In this document: positions 20,881-29,591 of the stretch, one piece after another
How positions within the stretch are numbered: the stretch's first letter is position 1
How the letters are laid out: every line of letters begins with the position of its first letter
NCBI GenBank assembly: GCA_013141385.1
Contig: JABFRB010000016.1
Coordinates: 124,001 to 188,000, forward strand
DNA length: 64,000 nucleotides
Source of the DNA: Bacteroidales bacterium
GTDB lineage: Bacteria; Bacteroidota; Bacteroidia; Bacteroidales; Tenuifilaceae
Direction of reading: 5' to 3'
Program-made: the position numbers and the translations under genes
The notes under the pieces: model-generated
What the model saw: only the letters and a program-made list of their open reading frames with translations
What the model was told of the DNA's origin: nothing
Database searches by the model: none

Positions 20881-21741
20881 ATGGGTATACAGATTGACAG
20901 GAATACGATTAAAGCATTTATACTAAATGAACTTCCTCCAAAAACAATGTCTTTGGTTGCGGATGCAATAGACGAGGATATGCGCTTGAAAAGAATGTAC
21001 GAAGATGAAAAATTTGAACTTGATGCCAAACTATACTATGCTAACAAGATGACCCGAACCGATAGGGACAAGTTTCAGCAAAGGCTATTGAAGAAAATGG
21101 AACTTTGTAGAGAGGTTAACCAGTACGAGGAGAAAAATACTTCCCCAGAGGAGATCCGCCGAAGAAGAAGTGTCTGCGAGACCGCTCAAAGCCAAGAAAT
21201 GAATATACCTAAAGCACACGCTATAGGTATGAGCATTAAACGCTGGCTGGTTGCCGCTTCGTTTACGGTGGTGCTTATTGTTGGTGGAGGGTTAGTTTAT
21301 CATTCTCAAACCGATGATTCACTGGAGAACAGGTTATACACACAGTACTATACCCCGCTTAGCTATAAAAATAACTACGTAATAAATATCAGCTCTTTAA
21401 GTCTTGCCAAGCAGAAGTATATGGACGGGGAGTACGCCAATGCCCTACTGCTCCTAAAGGGCTTGCCTTCAACGATAACCATTGAGGCTGAAAGAAACCT
21501 GTACATCGGACTATCCTTAATGGAAGTTGACAGCTATAAAGAGGCAGCAGACTACTTCGAAGGGATTCTTGCTAACCAATGTAAACTTGATAATATCCCA
21601 CAGGCTAAGTGGTATTTGGGACTTTGCTACTTAAAAACAAGGGATAAGGCAAAAGCGATTGATGCCTTTCGAACTATTGTAGATGATAATGGTTATAACC
21701 ATAATAAGGCTAAACGAATTCTAAAAGAGCTTGGCTATTGA
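20881..21741 (+). CDS. membrane-anchored TPR protein with anti-sigma-like layout
   Basis: A 286-residue protein. Residues 1-115 are charged and cytoplasmic-like, 117-138 form one membrane helix (WLVAASFTVVLIVGGGLVY), and 175-286 hold about three TPR-like helical pairs (YANALLLLKGL, YKEAADYFEGIL, KAIDAFRTIVDD). This layout is found in Bacteroidota anti-sigma-like proteins encoded with ECF sigma factors and TPR-CHAT proteins. No sigma gene is present here, but the CHAT protein is the next gene, convergent. A partner or regulator role for CHAT is an inference. Confidence 0.75.
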   Translation: MGIQIDRNTIKAFILNELPPKTMSLVADAIDEDMRLKRMYEDEKFELDAKLYYANKMTRTDRDKFQQRLLKKMELCREVNQYEEKNTSPEEIRRRRSVCETAQSQEMNIPKAHAIGMSIKRWLVAASFTVVLIVGGGLVYHSQTDDSLENRLYTQYYTPLSYKNNYVINISSLSLAKQKYMDGEYANALLLLKGLPSTITIEAERNLYIGLSLMEVDSYKEAADYFEGILANQCKLDNIPQAKWYLGLCYLKTRDKAKAIDAFRTIVDDNGYNHNKAKRILKELGY

Positions 21742-22070: not shown

Positions 22071-24842
22071 TTACAGCTGGCTTACAATTCTACCCACCAG
22101 CCTCCTTATCACCCTCCGTTTCCAGATAAGGAGGGTTAATGCTACAATTATGGTAACGATGAGGATTATTCTTTTTAGATACCAGTAATGGTAAAGCGCA
22201 TGCTGATTTCCGTTTACCACTATACCCGTCCAAAAACGGGGGGATATAAAAACCTGATTCTCCTTTTCGAGGTACTCCAGCTTGGCAAGCCTCAGTGCCT
22301 CATCCTTCCGCATCCCCTTTAGCAGGTTCAGGTAGTAATCGTTTAGTATATCGTTTATTGATCCGCCGTAGGCTACCCACAGCGACATTACCACCGATTG
22401 GCTGCCAGCAAACATAAAGCTCCTGCTTATGCTCATTACCCCTTCCCCTTTGGATAGCTTCCCCGATCCTGAGTTACATACACCCAGCACAACCATCCGT
22501 GCTTTCAGCTGCATGTTGTACACCTCCCATGCGTACAGGTAGTCATCGTCAGTGGAATCGGTTGGAGCGGACAGGGCTAGCTTCGAGTTGGCGGGGTTAA
22601 GGGTATCCTCCAACCCATGTGCGTAGAAATGGATAATCCCGTACCTACCACAGAACTTTCTAAAATTCTCTTCTGTAGCTTTACTACCTGTTAGCGATTT
22701 CCCGAAAGTTAGCAGGGCAATTCTTCTTACATCGCTTAGTCCCTCGGGAATACTTCTCAGCGAATCCTTTGAACCTTTGTAATCGGGCGCAATTCCCAGA
22801 TAATCGGGTGAACCTCTGTGAATGCTACTCAGGGAATTGCTGTAAAGCGTGGCGGAGTAAGCGTAGCCTATGGGGTATTTTCGTAGCAGGTACGATTCCT
22901 TTGCATAGTTGGGTTTATCGCTCACCCGATACGGCTTATCAATAAGCGCATCGAAGGAGATAAGATTCAACCTCCCATCTGGAATTATTAGCAGATTTCT
23001 ATTCTCAAGCAGGGATTCAACTGGGTAGATTAACTTTTTGTAAAGTGTATATGCCGCATCCCTATACATGTAGTAATCCGAGGGGTAGGGGCTGCGTAGA
23101 TCTGATATTAAAAAGTCAAGCCCTGAACGAAAGGTACTATCGGTTTCCTGCTTTACAAGTAAAAAAGTGTCCTTGGTAATGGCAAAGGTATACAGTGTGC
23201 TATCGCCCAGAACGTACTCAAGAATAGCCTCCTTTTTGTCCATAACTCTTTGCAACTGCGGTATGCTAACCACTTGGTTGCTATACTTTTGCCTATAGTA
23301 TGCAGGGTAATTACTCTCAAGTCGTTGCATTAGCCCCTCAAGTTTTTGCGTTAGAAAAAACTGCTGTTTATTCCACCCTTCTATTTTTGCTCTGTTGGGG
23401 CGTTCCATCTTGCTTTCATCCCCCACCTGCATTCTAAGGCTGGCTATCTGCTGCTTTACCTTTCGTTCATTATCACTTATGCTATCGGGTATTCCTGCAA
23501 CCCCCTTTGCCATCTCATCGTTCTTCAGCTCCCTTAGAACGGCGTACTTGCTGTACTCGGCATATCGAAAGGCTATGTCCATGTACTTAGAATCACCTGT
23601 AATTTCGTGCAGCAAATTTGCAATCCACACCATCAGTAGGTGTGTTTCGTGTTCCTTTGCAGCAAGCTGTAACTTTGACCCCTCGTACAAGTAGCCAGTA
23701 CGTAGCCGCTCGGTAAGGGTAGCAGCCAGTTCAAGCGTGGCAAGGGCTGCTTTAAGGTTTTCATTCCTGTTTTTAGATTCTGATAATTTTTTTAATGCTT
23801 GTGCTTTTAGTTTTAAAACATCCAACAAATCCATATCGGGGAGCACATCTGTATTTGGATTAGAATACACTGAACTATCATTAAAATTATTAATCTTGGA
23901 TATTAAAGATTTTTGGTAGTACTCTAGTGCTTGCTTGTATTTACCATTACGGTAAAATAGCAGTCCGTTATTTTTCAAACAAAAAGAGGTGTAGAGGTGT
24001 TTGTTTCCTAGCGTATTAATTATAATTCTATATGCCCTTTGGTAAAGTTGTTCACTCTTTGAAAATTCGCCTATTTCAGAATAAAAAAGGGCAAAGTTCA
24101 TGTATGACATTGCGGTCATGTAGTGGCTTTCGCCAAATTCCCTAGTATTACATTCAATTGCTTTTTTAAAACAGTAATTGGCTCTATTCAAACTATCCAA
24201 CTTTTGGTAGGTCAGCCCGCAATTATAATAGGTTTCACCTACACCTCCTAGTTGATTTTTTTCTGCAAGCTGGATGCTTTTTAGATAGCTCACCCTAGCA
24301 AGGTTGTAATCTCCTAATTTACGATACGCATACCCAAGATTATGATAATTATCAGCCATGTAGCGGTATTTCTTCACATCATCACTTTTTTCAAGTATTG
24401 ATAATGTATTCTCGAAATAGTAGATAGCCTTTGCGTAATCGCCCCTTAAAGAGTAAATATTGGCAAGGTTATCGTTGATTAGTGATATGTAATAGCTTTC
24501 AGAGGTTTTTTCTATTGCTTTTTTGTAGAAATCAATAGCCTCGCTTAAATTTCCCTGCTTTTTATATACTAACCCAAATAGATTATACACTCTGAAATAT
24601 TCAGGTTTAGTGTCACTGGTCATTTTGTCCTTTAACAAAAGAATTTTATTCAAATCCTTTATAGCATTGATATAATCCCCAGCTGTATAGTAAACCTTAC
24701 TGCTATCGTAAAGTATATTTATATAACTGGCATCAGTAAACTGCTGCGCTTTTATCTCCTGTAGGTTAAGGACAATACATGCTAATAGTAAAACAATAAA
24801 ACTGAGTGCCAAAGAATTACATTGTAATTTAAAAGAATTCAT
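22071..24842 (-). CDS. secreted TPR-CHAT protease with C-terminal membrane anchor
   Basis: A 923-residue caspase-like protein. From the start at 24842 it has a signal peptide ending near IKAQ, about seven to eight TPR motifs (residues 45-320), a helical linker, a CHAT domain (about 535-885) and a final membrane helix (IILIVTIIVALTLLIW) with a basic tail. The CHAT catalytic dyad is intact: His in HFYAHG (about 742) and Cys in LGVCNSGSG (about 789). CHAT proteases belong to the caspase/gingipain clan and often cut after Lys or Arg. An upstream ATG at 24875 would put 11 residues ahead of the signal. It is divergent from four tandem short-peptide genes whose GG motif follows an Arg or Lys, making those peptides its best candidate substrates (inference). 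Confidence 0.88.
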   Translation of the reverse strand: MNSFKLQCNSLALSFIVLLLACIVLNLQEIKAQQFTDASYINILYDSSKVYYTAGDYINAIKDLNKILLLKDKMTSDTKPEYFRVYNLFGLVYKKQGNLSEAIDFYKKAIEKTSESYYISLINDNLANIYSLRGDYAKAIYYFENTLSILEKSDDVKKYRYMADNYHNLGYAYRKLGDYNLARVSYLKSIQLAEKNQLGGVGETYYNCGLTYQKLDSLNRANYCFKKAIECNTREFGESHYMTAMSYMNFALFYSEIGEFSKSEQLYQRAYRIIINTLGNKHLYTSFCLKNNGLLFYRNGKYKQALEYYQKSLISKINNFNDSSVYSNPNTDVLPDMDLLDVLKLKAQALKKLSESKNRNENLKAALATLELAATLTERLRTGYLYEGSKLQLAAKEHETHLLMVWIANLLHEITGDSKYMDIAFRYAEYSKYAVLRELKNDEMAKGVAGIPDSISDNERKVKQQIASLRMQVGDESKMERPNRAKIEGWNKQQFFLTQKLEGLMQRLESNYPAYYRQKYSNQVVSIPQLQRVMDKKEAILEYVLGDSTLYTFAITKDTFLLVKQETDSTFRSGLDFLISDLRSPYPSDYYMYRDAAYTLYKKLIYPVESLLENRNLLIIPDGRLNLISFDALIDKPYRVSDKPNYAKESYLLRKYPIGYAYSATLYSNSLSSIHRGSPDYLGIAPDYKGSKDSLRSIPEGLSDVRRIALLTFGKSLTGSKATEENFRKFCGRYGIIHFYAHGLEDTLNPANSKLALSAPTDSTDDDYLYAWEVYNMQLKARMVVLGVCNSGSGKLSKGEGVMSISRSFMFAGSQSVVMSLWVAYGGSINDILNDYYLNLLKGMRKDEALRLAKLEYLEKENQVFISPRFWTGIVVNGNQHALYHYWYLKRIILIVTIIVALTLLIWKRRVIRRLVGRIVSQL

Positions 24843-24856
24843 TATTATTGTCCAAA

Positions 24857-24874
24857 TGTTCCTTAGTTGGAACA
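24857..24874. promoter_or_regulatory. palindrome in the CHAT/peptide divergent spacer
   Basis: TGTTCC-TTAGTT-GGAACA is a perfect 6-bp inverted repeat in the only 68 bp separating the CHAT start from the first peptide gene. It could be an operator serving both sides; this is a guess from position. Confidence 0.3.
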
Positions 24875-24910
24875 AAAATAGACTAATTGTTTAATTTAAA
24901 ATGCAAAATC

Positions 24911-25030
24911 ATGAAAACACTAAAAAAAATGAAAGAAAAGAAGGCAATAAAAGGATTCAGAATTCTCAAAGCAAAGGAGCTAATGCAAATCAGGGGGGGG
25001 GATGAAACTCAAAAAGATCATCTTCTTTAA
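24911..25030 (+). CDS. double-glycine peptide 1 of the CHAT-linked array
   Basis: A 39-codon gene. The basic leader begins MKTLKKMKEKK and ends K-E-L-M-Q-I-R-G-G, which fits the general L-x-x-x-E-L-x-x-I-x-G-G double-glycine leader pattern of exported peptides. The core is DETQKDHLL. The Gly-Gly codons sit in a run of nine G residues (24993-25001), and with nine the frame reads through to the core. It shares leader and QKD core motif with the next three units. Confidence 0.7.
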   Translation: MKTLKKMKEKKAIKGFRILKAKELMQIRGGDETQKDHLL

Positions 25031-25074
25031 CAGGTACAAAAGCAAACGAAATGTTTAACTAAAAACACATGATT

Positions 25075-25209
25075 ATGAAAACTCTAAGAAGAAACAAAGA
25101 AAAAAAAATGGTAAAAGGGTTTAGAACACTTAACGCGAAGGAATTGCTGCAAATCAGGGGTGGTGACGTTGACGGAGCTCCAACCCAAAAAGATATTGAA
25201 ATTCATTAG
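25075..25209 (+). CDS. double-glycine peptide 2 of the CHAT-linked array
   Basis: A 44-codon gene with leader MKTLRRNKEKK...KELLQIRGG and core DVDGAPTQKDIEIH. The Gly-Gly codons are GGT GGT, so no homopolymer is present. The preceding 30 bases (AAATGTTTAACTAAAAAC...ATGATT) recur before units 3 and 4 and in a truncated fifth unit, showing that the array grew by tandem duplication of a unit of about 180 bp. Confidence 0.7.
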   Translation: MKTLRRNKEKKMVKGFRTLNAKELLQIRGGDVDGAPTQKDIEIH

Positions 25210-25257
25210 CAGTAAAAAATAAAAATAAACTAAATGTTTAACTAAAAACTTATGATT

Positions 25258-25386
25258 ATGAAAACGATTAAAAAAAGAAATGAAAAGAAAATGGTTAAAG
25301 AGTTTAAAACTCTTAAGGTAAAGGAACTATCAGCAATTAAGGGTGGTGAAGGAGCTCCAATTCAAAAAGATGGTGAAATTCATTAG
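25258..25386 (+). CDS. double-glycine peptide 3 of the CHAT-linked array
   Basis: A 42-codon gene with leader MKTIKKRNEKK...KELSAIKGG and core EGAPIQKDGEIH. Gly-Gly is coded GGT GGT and preceded by Lys instead of Arg, so a basic residue before GG is kept in all four units. The core ends like units 2 and 4 (QKD-x-EIH). Confidence 0.7.
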   Translation: MKTIKKRNEKKMVKEFKTLKVKELSAIKGGEGAPIQKDGEIH

Positions 25387-25434
25387 CAGTAAAAAATAAA
25401 AATAAACTAAATGTTTAACTAAAAACTTATGATT

Positions 25435-25565
25435 ATGAAAACTCTAAGAAAAGGAAAAGAAAAAAAAGCATTAAAAGGGTTTAGAATCCTTAAAATAAAA
25501 GAATTGTTGCAAATCAGGGGGGGGATACTGCTCCTATAACCCAAAAAGATATTGAAATTCATTAG
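25435..25565 (+). pseudogene. double-glycine peptide 4, out of frame at a poly-G tract
   Basis: As sequenced, the frame starting at 25435 reads a normal leader (MKTLRKGKEKK...KELLQIRGG), then four unrelated residues (ILLL) and stops at 25539. The Gly-Gly codons lie in a run of eight G residues (25517-25524). A ninth G would restore the core DTAPITQKDIEIH and a stop at 25565, matching the other units. It is therefore a frameshifted unit, a phase-variable OFF state, or a homopolymer sequencing error. Confidence 0.75.
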
Positions 25566-25614: not shown

Positions 25615-25678
25615 GGGTAAGGCGGAGCTGAAATTGGGCTATTATACCAATTGGAAATACTCTTTTGAGCAAAATAAA

Positions 25679-25715
25679 AGGCTGCCTAATTTACTTTTTA
25701 GGCAGCCTCTTATTT
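25679..25715. terminator. bidirectional terminator between the peptide array and the M4 protease
   Basis: An 11-bp perfect stem (AGGCTGCCTAA at 25679-25689 with its complement at 25698-25708) with T-rich flanks on both strands. Confidence 0.8.
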
Positions 25716-25774: not shown

Positions 25775-28195
25775 CTAGTGCTTTACAACCAGCTGTTGCC
25801 TATATACATTCTTCCCATCGGTTATTTCAACCACGTAAACCCCATTGTTTAGATTACCAACTGGTAGAGTAACCGTCTCACCCGATTTGTTTAGCGTAGC
25901 TTTTAACGCTCCAAAGCTATCTAAAACACGGATTGTATAGGCTTTCGTTGAGATGTACTTTGAGGCTAGAGCCGTTGTACCTGTTGAACCATTACCCATT
26001 GAAGAGGCATTATCTGCGCTACCAATTGTTAACGTAATATTATCCGATGCTGGATTTGGGGAAATGGTAAAACCGTAGTAGCAGGGATCTTCCGCAACCT
26101 CCCCATGGCTAATCCCAGAAACCCCGCAGGCGTTCACCTCTGCAACATCCACGTAGTACACATGTCCGCAGTTGTTCAGCTGCCTCTGGAAAATAACGCT
26201 GGTGCTGGAGGTAGTATATTTCAGTTGTCCATCCAGATACCATTTGTAGGTGTTAGCGGTAACCACACCATCAATGGTGGCTGTAAATCTTCTTGGTGGC
26301 GCATCAAATTCTATGGCAATAGATCCCGGTACTGGCGAGCCAACAGTAACATAGAATGGGGAAAGGGTAGTACTAGCACAGGTAGAAGAAAGGGTTGCTT
26401 GAACTTGACCCAGCCCACTTCCAACGGCTTTATAAGTAGTTGGACTTCCCGTTGGGGACTGGGAATACAAATTGGAGCTAGCATTCCATAATACCGAGCA
26501 GCCTGAAGGCAGGTTATTTACCGTAAAAGCGCTACCCGATGAGCATACAAGGGTAGGACCAGTGATAGCTGCAATTGTTGGTTGAGCTCCCACCCCAACC
26601 GCATACCAAGCATTCTCTACCAAATTCACAAGAAGCCCATTTTGACCAGAGCATAGCGTACGGGCTGCATTGGTCATTGCAGTACGGAGTTCTGGAAAGG
26701 TTGAAATATTATCGAGGTAGTTATTGTAAACCGCCTCTATAATCAAGTCTTCCGCCCTATCCATACCCATTCCGCTTACATTATAGCTATTCCCAATACC
26801 ATTTACTCCAATACCCCCGTTAACCAGCAGGTAGAACCAGTGGGAGAAAACTCCCCCCTTAACGTACATATTACCCCCATTGTACTGTGAGGTTAGGTAG
26901 GTGTTTGCCGTCTGGTAGTAAGCACCCGGATCGTTTGTATCCTGAAGATTTCGTACACAGGTGTTGCTCCTCATTACCTGCTCGCCTATCCGCCAAACAT
27001 CATTGGGGCGAATACGGTACTCAAATATTGCCCCCCATATATCGCTTAGCCCCTCGTTCATGGCTCTTTGCTCCCCTATACTACTCCACTCCGTTTGGAA
27101 ATAGGTGATTCCATGCCCGAATTCATGCCCTATCAGATCAATACTACCAATGGGTTTAAAAACAGAAGCACCCTCTCCATACTCCAAAACTTTCTTAACC
27201 CGATCCCAGTACGCGTTATCCCTATCTCCAGCACCGTCTTGATATTTTATGCAGGCATTAATAGGAAATCCTGCATTATCGAAACTGTTTTTCTGGTATG
27301 TGGTATTTAAATGGTCATAAATTTTCTGCAACGCCCAGTGCACATCCAGCCCCATATCCCTATTGTCGGGCGACAATTCCGCTTTGCTCCAGTAGTTATT
27401 GGCATCGGTAATTTCAATTGCATTATCAACATTTGAAGTGTTATTGCAATTTTTGGTGTGGATGGTAGCCCCACGGGAAAAATCCGCAAGGTTGTAGGCG
27501 TTATTGTAGAATTCCGTTGCTGCCTGCTGCGTGCTGTAGTAGCGGGTCTCGAATGTTCCTGTAAAGGCGCTATCGAACCGCTGCTCCGTGGTCACCACCC
27601 TGCCCGTGTGGGCATCCACGTAGCCCATCTCATCATTATTTTTATGATCTGATATAAGGGTAACCTTGTAGGTAAGCATTGGGGTAGTAATGGTATCGTT
27701 ACCCTTTAGGGTTACCACCTCCTTTATGATTAGAGCAGATGTAAAATCATCCACGGAGGATGCAGGGATCTCCTTGTAGCTGGCAAAAGCTAGCATAGCC
27801 TCCTTGGGCGTAATGGATGGGGTTGTACTCATACCTCTGATTGGCACGTAATGGCCGTGGGCAAAGTACATCCTGCCGTTCTGGTAGTGGAAGTTATAGC
27901 CCGCACCATCCACCTTTACGCCCCTGTAGTACTGGTCGAAGTGCTGGTGGGTGAACCCCTCACGATCCTGCTTATGCGGCACCTCGGTAAAGCCATTGTC
28001 TGGCTTTACCTTTAGAAAGTTTTGGAAGAATTCTTTGGAGTCCGTTGGAATGCCCAATTTTAGATCGGTGTTGAACTCGGCACTTTTTACAACACCCCCT
28101 TTGCTGTAGGTAACGGTTGGCCTATCAACGCTCTGAGCGTAGCAGTGCATTATAATTGGTAAACCTGCAATTAGTGTTAGTAGTAGTTTTTTCAT
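25775..28195 (-). CDS. secreted M4 (thermolysin-like) metalloprotease with T9SS tail
   Basis: An 806-residue secreted protease. The signal peptide ends near HCYAQ. An FTP/PepSY-like propeptide follows (about 25-215). The catalytic domain has the zinc motif H-E-F-G-H (about residue 355) and the downstream NEGLSDIWG glutamate, so it looks active. After residue about 540 come immunoglobulin/PKD-like modules. The last about 95 residues (GFTISPNPASDNITLTI ... NNGVYVVEITDG ... QQLVVKH) form a T9SS type A sorting domain. It would be exported through T9SS to the cell surface or medium. It faces the CHAT peptide array across a shared terminator. Confidence 0.93.
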   Translation of the reverse strand: MKKLLLTLIAGLPIIMHCYAQSVDRPTVTYSKGGVVKSAEFNTDLKLGIPTDSKEFFQNFLKVKPDNGFTEVPHKQDREGFTHQHFDQYYRGVKVDGAGYNFHYQNGRMYFAHGHYVPIRGMSTTPSITPKEAMLAFASYKEIPASSVDDFTSALIIKEVVTLKGNDTITTPMLTYKVTLISDHKNNDEMGYVDAHTGRVVTTEQRFDSAFTGTFETRYYSTQQAATEFYNNAYNLADFSRGATIHTKNCNNTSNVDNAIEITDANNYWSKAELSPDNRDMGLDVHWALQKIYDHLNTTYQKNSFDNAGFPINACIKYQDGAGDRDNAYWDRVKKVLEYGEGASVFKPIGSIDLIGHEFGHGITYFQTEWSSIGEQRAMNEGLSDIWGAIFEYRIRPNDVWRIGEQVMRSNTCVRNLQDTNDPGAYYQTANTYLTSQYNGGNMYVKGGVFSHWFYLLVNGGIGVNGIGNSYNVSGMGMDRAEDLIIEAVYNNYLDNISTFPELRTAMTNAARTLCSGQNGLLVNLVENAWYAVGVGAQPTIAAITGPTLVCSSGSAFTVNNLPSGCSVLWNASSNLYSQSPTGSPTTYKAVGSGLGQVQATLSSTCASTTLSPFYVTVGSPVPGSIAIEFDAPPRRFTATIDGVVTANTYKWYLDGQLKYTTSSTSVIFQRQLNNCGHVYYVDVAEVNACGVSGISHGEVAEDPCYYGFTISPNPASDNITLTIGSADNASSMGNGSTGTTALASKYISTKAYTIRVLDSFGALKATLNKSGETVTLPVGNLNNGVYVVEITDGKNVYRQQLVVKH

Positions 28196-28216: not shown

Positions 28217-28633
28217 TTATTGTATACGTTTTAAAATATATACATCAAACATTGCATCAAACCAAGGACTTATATCCTTGGCAAGGATGTTATTCCTGTC
28301 GGAGAACTTAAACAGGGATTTTTCCCATATTTCCATTCCATCTGATTCATCGTAAACAGTGCGTATATTAAGAGTAGAATCAGCTATATAGTAAATGGTA
28401 TATTTCATCTTTTTATCCAATGCATCGTATAATCGATAAACACCATTGGGCAAAAACTCCCCGTAGCTCCCGCTAGGTTTAACTTTTATTGTACCCATAC
28501 CTCGCTTTTCTATAAGTATCCATTTACCAAGGATGGCTTTCGCAGGGTCGGTTTCGAGGGACTCTTGTTTGCAGCTAAGGAGTGTAAACAATACAATTCC
28601 ACACAGAAGTAAAAAAAGTTTTAAGGGTTTCAT
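28217..28633 (-). CDS. tandem lipoprotein paralogue C
   Basis: A 138-residue lipoprotein (lipobox FTLLSC). The body, starting DPAKAILGKWILIEKRGMG, contains a G-K-W near the N-terminus and successive short strands (YRLYDA, YTIYYIADSTLNIRT, LFKFSD), suggestive of a lipocalin-like barrel, though I cannot assign a family with certainty. It is one of three adjacent paralogues on the minus strand, 60 bp from the next. It ends in RIQ after a conserved SPWFDAMFDVYIL segment. Confidence 0.75.
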   Translation of the reverse strand: MKPLKLFLLLCGIVLFTLLSCKQESLETDPAKAILGKWILIEKRGMGTIKVKPSGSYGEFLPNGVYRLYDALDKKMKYTIYYIADSTLNIRTVYDESDGMEIWEKSLFKFSDRNNILAKDISPWFDAMFDVYILKRIQ

Positions 28634-28692
28634 TTGTTTAAAGTTTATAAATAAATTATTTCAATGCTTCTTACGTTTATCTTTATTAGAGG

Positions 28693-29109
28693 TTATTGCA
28701 TACGTCTTAAAACAAATACGTCAAACCAAGCATCAACCCAAGGGCTCATGTCTTCAGTAAGAGTATTATTTCTATCAGAAAACTTATATAAATATTTTCT
28801 CCAAATTTCCGTTCCATCACTTTCATCGTATATGATACGCACATTTAATGTAGAATCAGAAAAAAAATACGGGAAACTATTTACTTTACCATCTATGGCA
28901 TCATAATGCTTAACAATACCGTTGTTAAAAAACTCTGTATAGCTTCCGTTAGGTTTAATTTTTATTGTACCCATACCTCGCGTTTCTATAAGTACCCATT
29001 TCCCGAGTATGGCTTTCGCTGGGTCGGTTTCTAGATGTTCTTTTTTGCAGCCAAGGAGTGTAAACAATGCAATTACGCACAGTGTTAGAGAAAATTTAGA
29101 GGGTTTCAT
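28693..29109 (-). CDS. tandem lipoprotein paralogue B
   Basis: A 138-residue lipoprotein (lipobox FTLLGC), clearly homologous along its whole length to its two neighbours (ILGKWVLIETRGMGTIKIKPNGSY, DSTLNVRIIYDESDG, SPWVDAWFDVFVLRRMQ). The 59-bp spacers between the copies are also similar, so duplication included the intergenic DNA. Function unknown; probably surface or periplasmic, outer-membrane anchored. Confidence 0.75.
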   Translation of the reverse strand: MKPSKFSLTLCVIALFTLLGCKKEHLETDPAKAILGKWVLIETRGMGTIKIKPNGSYTEFFNNGIVKHYDAIDGKVNSFPYFFSDSTLNVRIIYDESDGTEIWRKYLYKFSDRNNTLTEDMSPWVDAWFDVFVLRRMQ

Positions 29110-29168
29110 CCGTTTAAAGTTTATAAATAAATTATTGCAATACTTCTTACGTTTAGTTTTATTAGAGG

Positions 29169-29591
29169 TTATTCAATGCGTTTTTCAACGAATACATCAA
29201 ACATGGCATCAGCCCAGGGGCTCATATCTGTGGTAAGAATGCTATTCTTATCGGAAAATTTAAACAAATACTTTTGCCATAGTTCCGTTCCATCCTCTTC
29301 AAAGTATGCAATACGTACATTGAGAGTTGAATCGGCGAAATAATAAATCGTATATTTCATTTCTTTGTCTAGGGCATCATAACGTCTCATAATACCATCT
29401 TTCAGGTATTCTATATAGCTCCCGTTAGGTTTAATTTTTATTGTACCCATTCCTCGCATTTCTATAAGTATCCATTTCCCAAGGATGGCTTTCGCAGGGT
29501 CGGTTTCAATCGGCTCATCATCACAGCTACTAGCCATAATGGCAAGTATGCTGCATAGAAAAATTAGCTTTGTAAAGGGATTCACTATCAC
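29169..29591 (-). CDS. tandem lipoprotein paralogue A
   Basis: A 140-residue lipoprotein (lipobox IMASSC), the first of the three in transcription order. The mature part matches paralogues B and C, but the signal peptide differs (MIVNPFTKLIFLC), so duplication or exchange may have started near the lipobox. It begins 10 bp after the stop of the beta-barrel gene and is probably in the same transcript. Confidence 0.75.
   Translation of the reverse strand: MIVNPFTKLIFLCSILAIMASSCDDEPIETDPAKAILGKWILIEMRGMGTIKIKPNGSYIEYLKDGIMRRYDALDKEMKYTIYYFADSTLNVRIAYFEEDGTELWQKYLFKFSDKNSILTTDMSPWADAMFDVFVEKRIE

Follow-up and report, generated by a model that had tools for sequence, protein, structure and literature searches.

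What does a caspase-like protease do beside an array of small genes for peptides with double-glycine (GG) leaders? The question is raised by a 64,000-nucleotide stretch of DNA from a Bacteroidales bacterium of the Tenuifilaceae (GenBank assembly GCA_013141385.1, contig JABFRB010000016.1, positions 124,001 to 188,000 of the forward strand), hereafter the window, in which the gene for a TPR-CHAT protease lies back to back with four such peptide genes. The original prediction, made from the letters of the window, was that CHAT cuts the peptide leader at a basic residue as part of a maturation, signalling or bacteriocin system. We find that the pairing of CHAT and peptide genes is recurrent and that the peptide changes together with the sensor (TPR) half of the protease, which suggests an undescribed peptide-signalling system in one bacterial order.

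Organization of the locus

The protease and peptide genes lie at the following positions of the window.

22071 to 24842, minus strand: TPR-CHAT protease gene, 923 amino acids, with Pfam CHAT and TPR matches
24911 to 25030, plus strand: GG-leader peptide gene, unit 1; peptide-model match at C16:148911-149027, E = 1.1e-17
25075 to 25209, plus strand: GG-leader peptide gene, unit 2; peptide-model match at C16:149075-149206, E = 1.7e-21
25258 to 25386, plus strand: GG-leader peptide gene, unit 3; peptide-model match at C16:149258-149383, E = 1.0e-19
25435 to 25565, plus strand: GG-leader peptide gene, unit 4; an 8-G run shifts the frame, and the assembled open reading frame (ORF) stops at 25539

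As first described, the protease gene is divergent from four tandem small ORFs (starts at 24911, 25075, 25258 and 25435), with a gap of 68 bp between 24842 and 24911; an alternative TTG start is possible for the protease at 24875. The CHAT match is strong (E = 1.7e-44; 152.8 bits against a curated cut-off of 24), and the dyad that had been called intact is present in the alignment as His742 and Cys789. A hydrophobic N-terminus is followed by a TPR half (approximately residues 40–520), a CHAT half with the dyad and a C-terminal hydrophobic helix. The protein had been taken for a secreted protease; hydropathy and the structural model, on which the topology rests, suggest more precisely that it is periplasmic and membrane-anchored.

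All four units carry the leader L-x3-E-L-x2-I-(R/K)-G-G, with a basic residue before GG, as the original prediction had it. The QKD core ascribed to every unit is in frame in units 1–3; in unit 4 it is out of frame at the 8-G run, and position 25565, where the array had been said to end, is the stop of that unit's other frame. An identical copy of the unit 3 peptide is encoded on contig C21 beside another CHAT gene (L024; L numbers designate loci).

CHAT and peptide genes recur together

The genome that contains the window (5.5 Mb, 53 contigs) has 10 CHAT genes, and GG-leader peptide genes are found divergently upstream of 9 of them: the window, L017, L018, L019, L020 (two), L021, the first CHAT gene of L022, L023 and L024 (three). 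A peptide model was built from 12 peptides of the genus group, and matches were counted at E <= 0.001. All 27 matches in this genome fall within about 3.7 kb of CHAT genes; in the nearest relative, 26 of 27 are beside CHAT genes or fragments and the remaining one is about 5.5 kb away. Peptides occurring mostly without CHAT had been named as evidence against the link, and 53 of the 54 matches in the two genomes are near CHAT. The other 25 genomes of the family yielded one weak partial match, in a genome (G020) where the CHAT model matched nothing. A regular expression, which counts 12 GG peptides in L017, misses leaders with other residues; the peptide of the first CHAT gene of L022 was missed in this way and recovered by the model.

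The check proposed at the outset was a search of other Bacteroidota for CHAT genes next to such peptides. One selection of CHAT ORFs kept those matching past position 820 of the model. Within the order, 36 of the 82 CHAT genes examined (those with at least 300 bp of upstream sequence) have a GG peptide no more than 800 bp upstream, and these represent 17 of 39 families. As controls, none of 81 downstream windows had such a gene, and 11 of 1640 shuffled upstream regions did. In 28 of the 36 pairs the genes are divergent, and in 8 the peptide has the same direction as CHAT (L110, L111, L112, L115, L116, L233, L238 and L251). Since 40 loci of the order were picked by hand from match lists, with shorter CHAT ORFs favoured, 36/82 should not be read as an unbiased frequency. 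The CHAT alignment also retrieved loci of named organisms; here a peptide lies within 800 bp upstream in 20 of the 62 with enough DNA and downstream in 0 of 71, and each of the 29 upstream peptide ORFs runs on the strand opposite CHAT.

Outside the order, 80 CHAT loci of the phylum were likewise picked by hand, and none had an upstream GG peptide. The pairing thus does not look like a general feature of CHAT genes and is found mainly in one order and neighbouring CHAT clades. On a CHAT tree, 56 of 238 tips are peptide-labelled, with 13 changes of state, a count from the tree only and without a shuffled control; L078, one of those counted, has an offset of -24 and is probably a false match. Four repeat loci (L106, L107, L128 and L129) and ORFs shorter than 600 amino acids were dropped from the tree, and the repeats were kept in the exporter, dyad and substitution-rate comparisons below. 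No paper title or abstract describing CHAT-peptide pairing was among the open-access matches listed. We regard the pairing as very secure.

The leader is most likely cut by C39 peptidases

The recognition sequence of ComA-type C39 peptidases is Leu(-12)-x3-Glu(-8)-Leu(-7) before GG, as given in an excerpt of PMC6363468, and all four window units have this leader, L(-12)-x3-E(-8)-L(-7)..GG. C39 exporters occur at 5 of 61 CHAT loci with peptides (4 of the 61 being repeat fetches) and at 0 of 188 without (p = 0.0008). The window's own genome has six C39 matches, three of them in ORFs of 718–733 amino acids, and two of these three are near CHAT-peptide loci (L018 and L021); L021 contains CHAT, the peptide, a gene that reads as a secretion adaptor and a C39-ABC gene. 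On this sequence evidence, C39 processing of the leader is likely: with a ComA/C39-type leader and, among the CHAT loci compared, C39 exporters only where there are peptides, C39 rather than CHAT most likely makes the cut. CHAT also has an apparent export signal and, given this topology, should not meet the cytoplasmic precursor.

These results bear directly on the proposal that CHAT matures the peptide, cutting at a basic residue to remove the leader or trim the core, either following C39 or in its place. Of the 99 distinct peptides, 70 do have R or K before GG, many genus cores contain K or R, and CHAT is a caspase-clan protease with the dyad present in 61 of 61 peptide-linked genes (as it also is in 206 of 206 others). 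In the other 29 peptides, however, the position is occupied by I, S, T, L, V, A, C, M, F or N (KISGG and KITGG in L017, for example), so that the basic residue holds for all four window units but not throughout the family. Moreover, the leader is of the ComA type, C39 exporters accompany the peptides, CHAT seems to be periplasmic, and the peptide co-varies with the TPR half (see below) and not with the catalytic half, which a substrate might be expected to track. Maturation by CHAT appears unlikely, and cleavage of the leader at the basic residue, the core of the original prediction, was not supported.

Two further groups of GG precursors were seen in these genomes. L025 (4320-10532) has C39-ABC and secretion-adaptor-like genes with hydrophobic GG peptides and no CHAT gene nearby. 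In L019 (10608-16107), what reads as a separate RiPP-like (ribosomally synthesized and post-translationally modified peptide) cluster lies directly beside the CHAT-peptide pair, with a GG precursor, ATP-grasp-like and radical-SAM/SPASM-like proteins and a membrane protein at the C39-model match.

Properties of the peptide family

Over the 99 distinct peptides, the leader has a median net charge of +4, and the core has a median length of 14 amino acids and a median net charge of -2. The first core residue is D or E in 76; Pro is present in 81 cores and Cys in 1. Among 18 peptides of the genus group, the nonsynonymous rate (dN) is below the synonymous rate (dS) in all 137 pairs kept of 153 (dS between 0.05 and 2), with a median dN/dS of 0.26. 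Because dN is below dS in every kept pair and upstream peptides exceed the number in shuffled regions, we take the peptide genes to be more than chance ORFs. The Pfam ComC model (PF03047) matches unit 3 just above its cut-off (20.8 against 20.4), and the match falls on the leader; units 1 and 2 score 15.5 and 13.7, below the cut-off, and unit 4 has no match.

Could the array be a bacteriocin locus, with peptides that kill relatives and with CHAT and a neighbouring membrane TPR protein conferring immunity or regulation? GG leaders, C39 exporters and tandem variable cores are all compatible with this. Unit 3 barely exceeds the cut-off of the NCBIfam bacteriocin-leader model TIGR01847 (15.8 against 15.7), and other matches of units 1 and 3 to bacteriocin models, including class II models, fall short of the cut-off, and there are none for units 2 and 4. 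Class II bacteriocins, though, are cationic or hydrophobic, and cores of about 14 residues with a net charge of -2 and Cys in 1 of 99 do not resemble them. A Pfam scan of neighbouring genes, covering 79 of 150 listed ORFs, showed no modification or immunity family among 25 of the 55 families found. A bacteriocin function is accordingly quite improbable; among the three functions first suggested, signalling is best supported, and the short, acidic, Pro-containing cores make bacteriocins less likely.

Runs of 7–9 G are found at the Gly-Gly codons of several peptide genes. Unit 1 has a 9-G run (24993-25001) at its R-G-G codons and is in frame; at the 8-G run of unit 4 (25517-25524) the reading shifts out of frame. 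The three genes that end early or look shifted have 8 G (window unit 4, L028 6656 and L034 6314), yet L044 6799 has 8 G and is in frame. The differences reflect either phase variation or sequencing error, and the tracts might toggle single peptides on and off.

Peptide cores co-vary with the TPR half of CHAT

In Mantel tests on 19 genus-group CHAT genes, each taken with its nearest peptide, core distances were correlated with those of the TPR half (r = 0.51, p = 0.0005) and not with those of the CHAT half (r = -0.08, p = 0.74). Left out of the 19 were L037, L038 and L040, which are more distant and were used in the identity comparison, as well as L036, L021 and the second CHAT gene of L022.

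Three genes (L017, L020 and L042) have a TPR half only 38–43% identical to the others and a CHAT half that is 65–97% identical, a range similar to the 66–97% among the remaining genes. They carry a different peptide family, and identity breaks at residues ~520–540. L028 has a TPR-only gene with its own divergent peptide, whose match to full CHAT proteins ends at residue 539–540, and L017 has two further truncated TPR pieces among its peptide genes. From these alignments, it looks as though the TPR half and the peptide family are exchanged together as a cassette. Without the three swapped genes, the correlation of core and TPR half is 0.38 (p = 0.0005), that of leader and TPR half is 0.09 (p = 0.20), and that of the core given the leader is 0.37 (p = 0.001), the core signal lying in TPR residues ~41–300. 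Upstream of the full CHAT gene of L017 (2326-5715), a dozen GG-peptide genes are interspersed with truncated CHAT TPR fragments.

Core–TPR co-variation is also what an inhibitor or bait would give, with the acidic core filling the TPR groove or the active site and keeping CHAT inactive until the core is cleaved or taken away. Separase-like proteases are restrained by pseudosubstrate inhibitors, and the short, acidic, Pro-containing, Cys-poor cores would suit such a role. Loci with numerous genes and differing cores (12 genes in L017), together with C39 export, fit a diffusing signal better, and no core motif common to all families was seen. We consider inhibition an unlikely role for the peptide.

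A membrane TPR protein is the candidate target

A second gene adjoins most CHAT genes of this genome, and its window copy is as follows.

20881 to 21741, plus strand: membrane TPR protein, 286 amino acids, AlphaFold2 (AF2) model with a mean confidence (pLDDT) of 79.2; candidate CHAT target

The protein reads as a cytoplasmic N-terminal part, one hydrophobic helix and a periplasmic TPR domain; a fold search gave TPR matches for residues 165-286 and barely covered the N-terminal part. Homologues adjoin 8 of the 10 CHAT genes. Distances in the periplasmic part are correlated with those of the CHAT half (r = 0.79, p = 0.0005) and not with those of the TPR half (0.08, p = 0.21); the cytoplasmic part is weakly correlated with the CHAT half (0.30, p = 0.0085).

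In several relatives a sigma-70-like gene overlaps, closely precedes or adjoins the membrane TPR homologue; by reading, none was seen beside the window copy. Of the 79 scanned neighbours, 12 match Sigma70_r2, 8 HisKA and 5 C39, and no anti-sigma family was among the 25 of 55 families shown. L045 has, on one strand, peptide, membrane TPR, HisKA, LytTR, C39-ABC and HlyD genes, with CHAT divergent from them and, behind CHAT, a further membrane TPR gene and a gene that scores weakly as sigma-70-like. In L021, membrane TPR and LytTR genes lie about 7 kb from CHAT. The window's genome has 15 LytTR matches elsewhere, of which one is near a CHAT locus (L021); next to the window locus itself, reading and a Pfam scan of 6 neighbouring ORFs revealed no sensor kinase or LytTR gene.

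Related folds and systems

The AF2 model of the window CHAT protein (pLDDT 85.3) aligns with Csx29 (Z 27.4 over 571 residues), and also with separase. An excerpt of PMC10028731 describes cleavage of Csx30 by Csx29 as thought to relieve inhibition of the extracytoplasmic function (ECF)-type factor CASP-sigma, and this Craspase system thus regulates through cleavage of a sigma inhibitor. Common to both are the TPR-CHAT fold and, in the wider family, genes for a protease, a putative inhibitor and a sigma-like factor. In contrast to Craspase, the window CHAT is apparently periplasmic and membrane-anchored, its proposed trigger is a peptide and not RNA, and cleavage is inferred. The model also aligns over residues 74-878 with DdvA, a transmembrane anti-sigma factor of Myxococcus (Z 21.8, root-mean-square deviation 13), which ties the fold to ECF control; DdvA unites anti-sigma factor and fold in one chain, whereas CHAT and the membrane TPR protein are separate here. 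The signal of DdvA was unknown according to an excerpt of PMC4374960. A review (PMC8999054, in excerpt) notes that protease control has been proposed for ECF54 sigma factors on account of nearby carboxypeptidase, subtilase and CHAT genes. By analogy, these precedents make the order ligand, protease, anti-sigma factor plausible.

Two families of peptide receptors invite comparison. RRNPP receptors (Rap, NprR and PlcR) share the TPR superhelix, which in their case binds short peptides; RapI aligns with the model at Z 22.9, and NprR is among the sequence matches. RRNPP receptors work in the cytoplasm, on DNA or response regulators, whereas the TPRs here are fused to a protease and, as the hydrophobic N- and C-termini suggest, lie across the membrane in the periplasm. 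Peptide signalling between cells is well known in Gram-positive bacteria, and ComE and BlpR are LytTR regulators. The streptococcal GG pheromones (CSP/ComAB/ComDE and BIP/BlpAB/BlpHR) have in common with our peptides a ComA-type GG leader, a short variable core and a C39-ABC exporter, and L045 likewise has HisKA and LytTR genes. Their pherotype-like pairing of signal and sensor, described in an excerpt of PMC7595303, can be likened to that of peptide and CHAT. They differ in that the constant partner here is a caspase-like TPR-CHAT protease and not a kinase, that the host is Gram-negative, and that no exporter or two-component genes were seen adjoining the window locus.

A proposed mechanism and its weak points

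We know of no established trigger for the CHAT proteases of Bacteroidota. Our proposal, to which we give slightly less than an even chance, is that a peptide gates a periplasmic TPR-CHAT protease that acts on a membrane anti-sigma-like partner. C39-peptidase ABC transporters would first cut the precursors after GG and export acidic, Pro-containing peptides of about 10–20 residues, as the leader motif and the neighbouring exporters suggest. The mature peptide would then bind the TPR half of the membrane-anchored protease and change its activity, a step to which the co-variation points. Finally, the CHAT half would act on an anti-sigma-like partner, the membrane TPR protein encoded next to it, at the periplasmic domain, and so alter gene expression; co-variation, gene order and the Csx29/Csx30 precedent are consistent with this. 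Related loci contribute a sigma-70-like gene, and some of them HisKA or LytTR genes as well. Taken separately, the peptide as ligand of the TPR half is about an even call, and so, roughly, is the membrane TPR protein as the target of CHAT. Directly observed are the repeated pairing of the genes, near-exclusive in two genomes, the swap of modules, the co-variation and the association with C39; binding, cleavage and output are proposed.

Several observations weigh against the proposal. Across all 19 genes, the leader follows the TPR half more closely (r = 0.77; -0.13 with the CHAT half) than the core does, and without the swapped genes it still tracks the first ~140 residues (0.32–0.38 per window of residues, with no significance figure). 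The cores are likewise correlated with synonymous differences in the TPR half (r = 0.47, or 0.34 once the swapped genes are removed), and the excess of the amino-acid signal over them is small (partial correlation 0.25, p = 0.02; 0.19, p = 0.03 without the swapped genes). For the partner and CHAT, synonymous differences correlate at 0.61; conditioned on these, the amino-acid signal is 0.67, a value without a permutation test. Because the peptide genes border CHAT at its 5' (TPR) end, and the periplasmic end of the partner borders it at the 3' end, physical linkage accounts for part of the co-variation. No peptide was detected at 46 of the 82 CHAT genes examined in the order or at any of the 80 from the rest of the phylum, so a peptide is not a general requirement of CHAT, and the membrane TPR partner also occurs beside CHAT genes without peptides. 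The window membrane TPR protein has no Pfam anti-sigma domain, and the RapI match (residues 39-477, in the TPR half) is tied with eukaryotic TPR scaffolds. By reading, no C39 exporter, sigma, kinase or LytTR gene was seen adjoining the window locus, and the C39 exporter of L018 may serve another GG precursor of its own operon. Such a precursor, with a leader ending EGG, lies at L018 8213-8359, in the operon direction of the exporter beside the CHAT-peptide pair.

Linkage offers a rival account of the partner–CHAT co-variation as well, and in its full form holds that co-variation and swap are hitchhiking only: another receptor, such as a nearby kinase, senses the peptides, and CHAT is linked for regulation or housekeeping. 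In its favour, synonymous sites co-vary too, leaders track the beginning of the TPR half, and some loci have kinase or LytTR genes. Over the whole TPR half without the swapped genes, however, cores still co-vary and leaders no longer do; HisKA matches are limited to 8 of 79 scanned neighbours, and the near-exclusive placement of peptide matches by CHAT in two genomes (53/54) is not readily explained. Hitchhiking as the whole explanation appears improbable to us.

Other features of the window

25672 to 25715, plus strand: hairpin, likely a terminator, 3' of the array; an inverted repeat with 18-nt arms

Just past the peptide array (25775-28195) is a gene for an M4 thermolysin-like metalloprotease with a type IX secretion sorting domain, followed at 28217-29591 by three tandem related genes for small proteins of 138–140 amino acids without Pfam matches. 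A defence system was considered, and PADLOC gave generic TPR models only.

Implications

Should the peptides be the trigger, CHAT activation would be directly testable with synthetic peptides of ~10–15 residues; peptide signalling would then be joined to caspase-like proteolysis, with natural, exchangeable ligand-sensor pairs to work with. More speculatively, a secreted GG peptide may be sensed directly by a caspase-like membrane protease that cuts a transmembrane anti-sigma-like protein; ligand genes and sensor half would be exchanged as one cassette at a fixed junction, so that strains would change 'pherotype' with the catalytic half still fitted to its membrane target, and poly-G tracts may switch single peptides. 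We hold this fuller scenario only tentatively.

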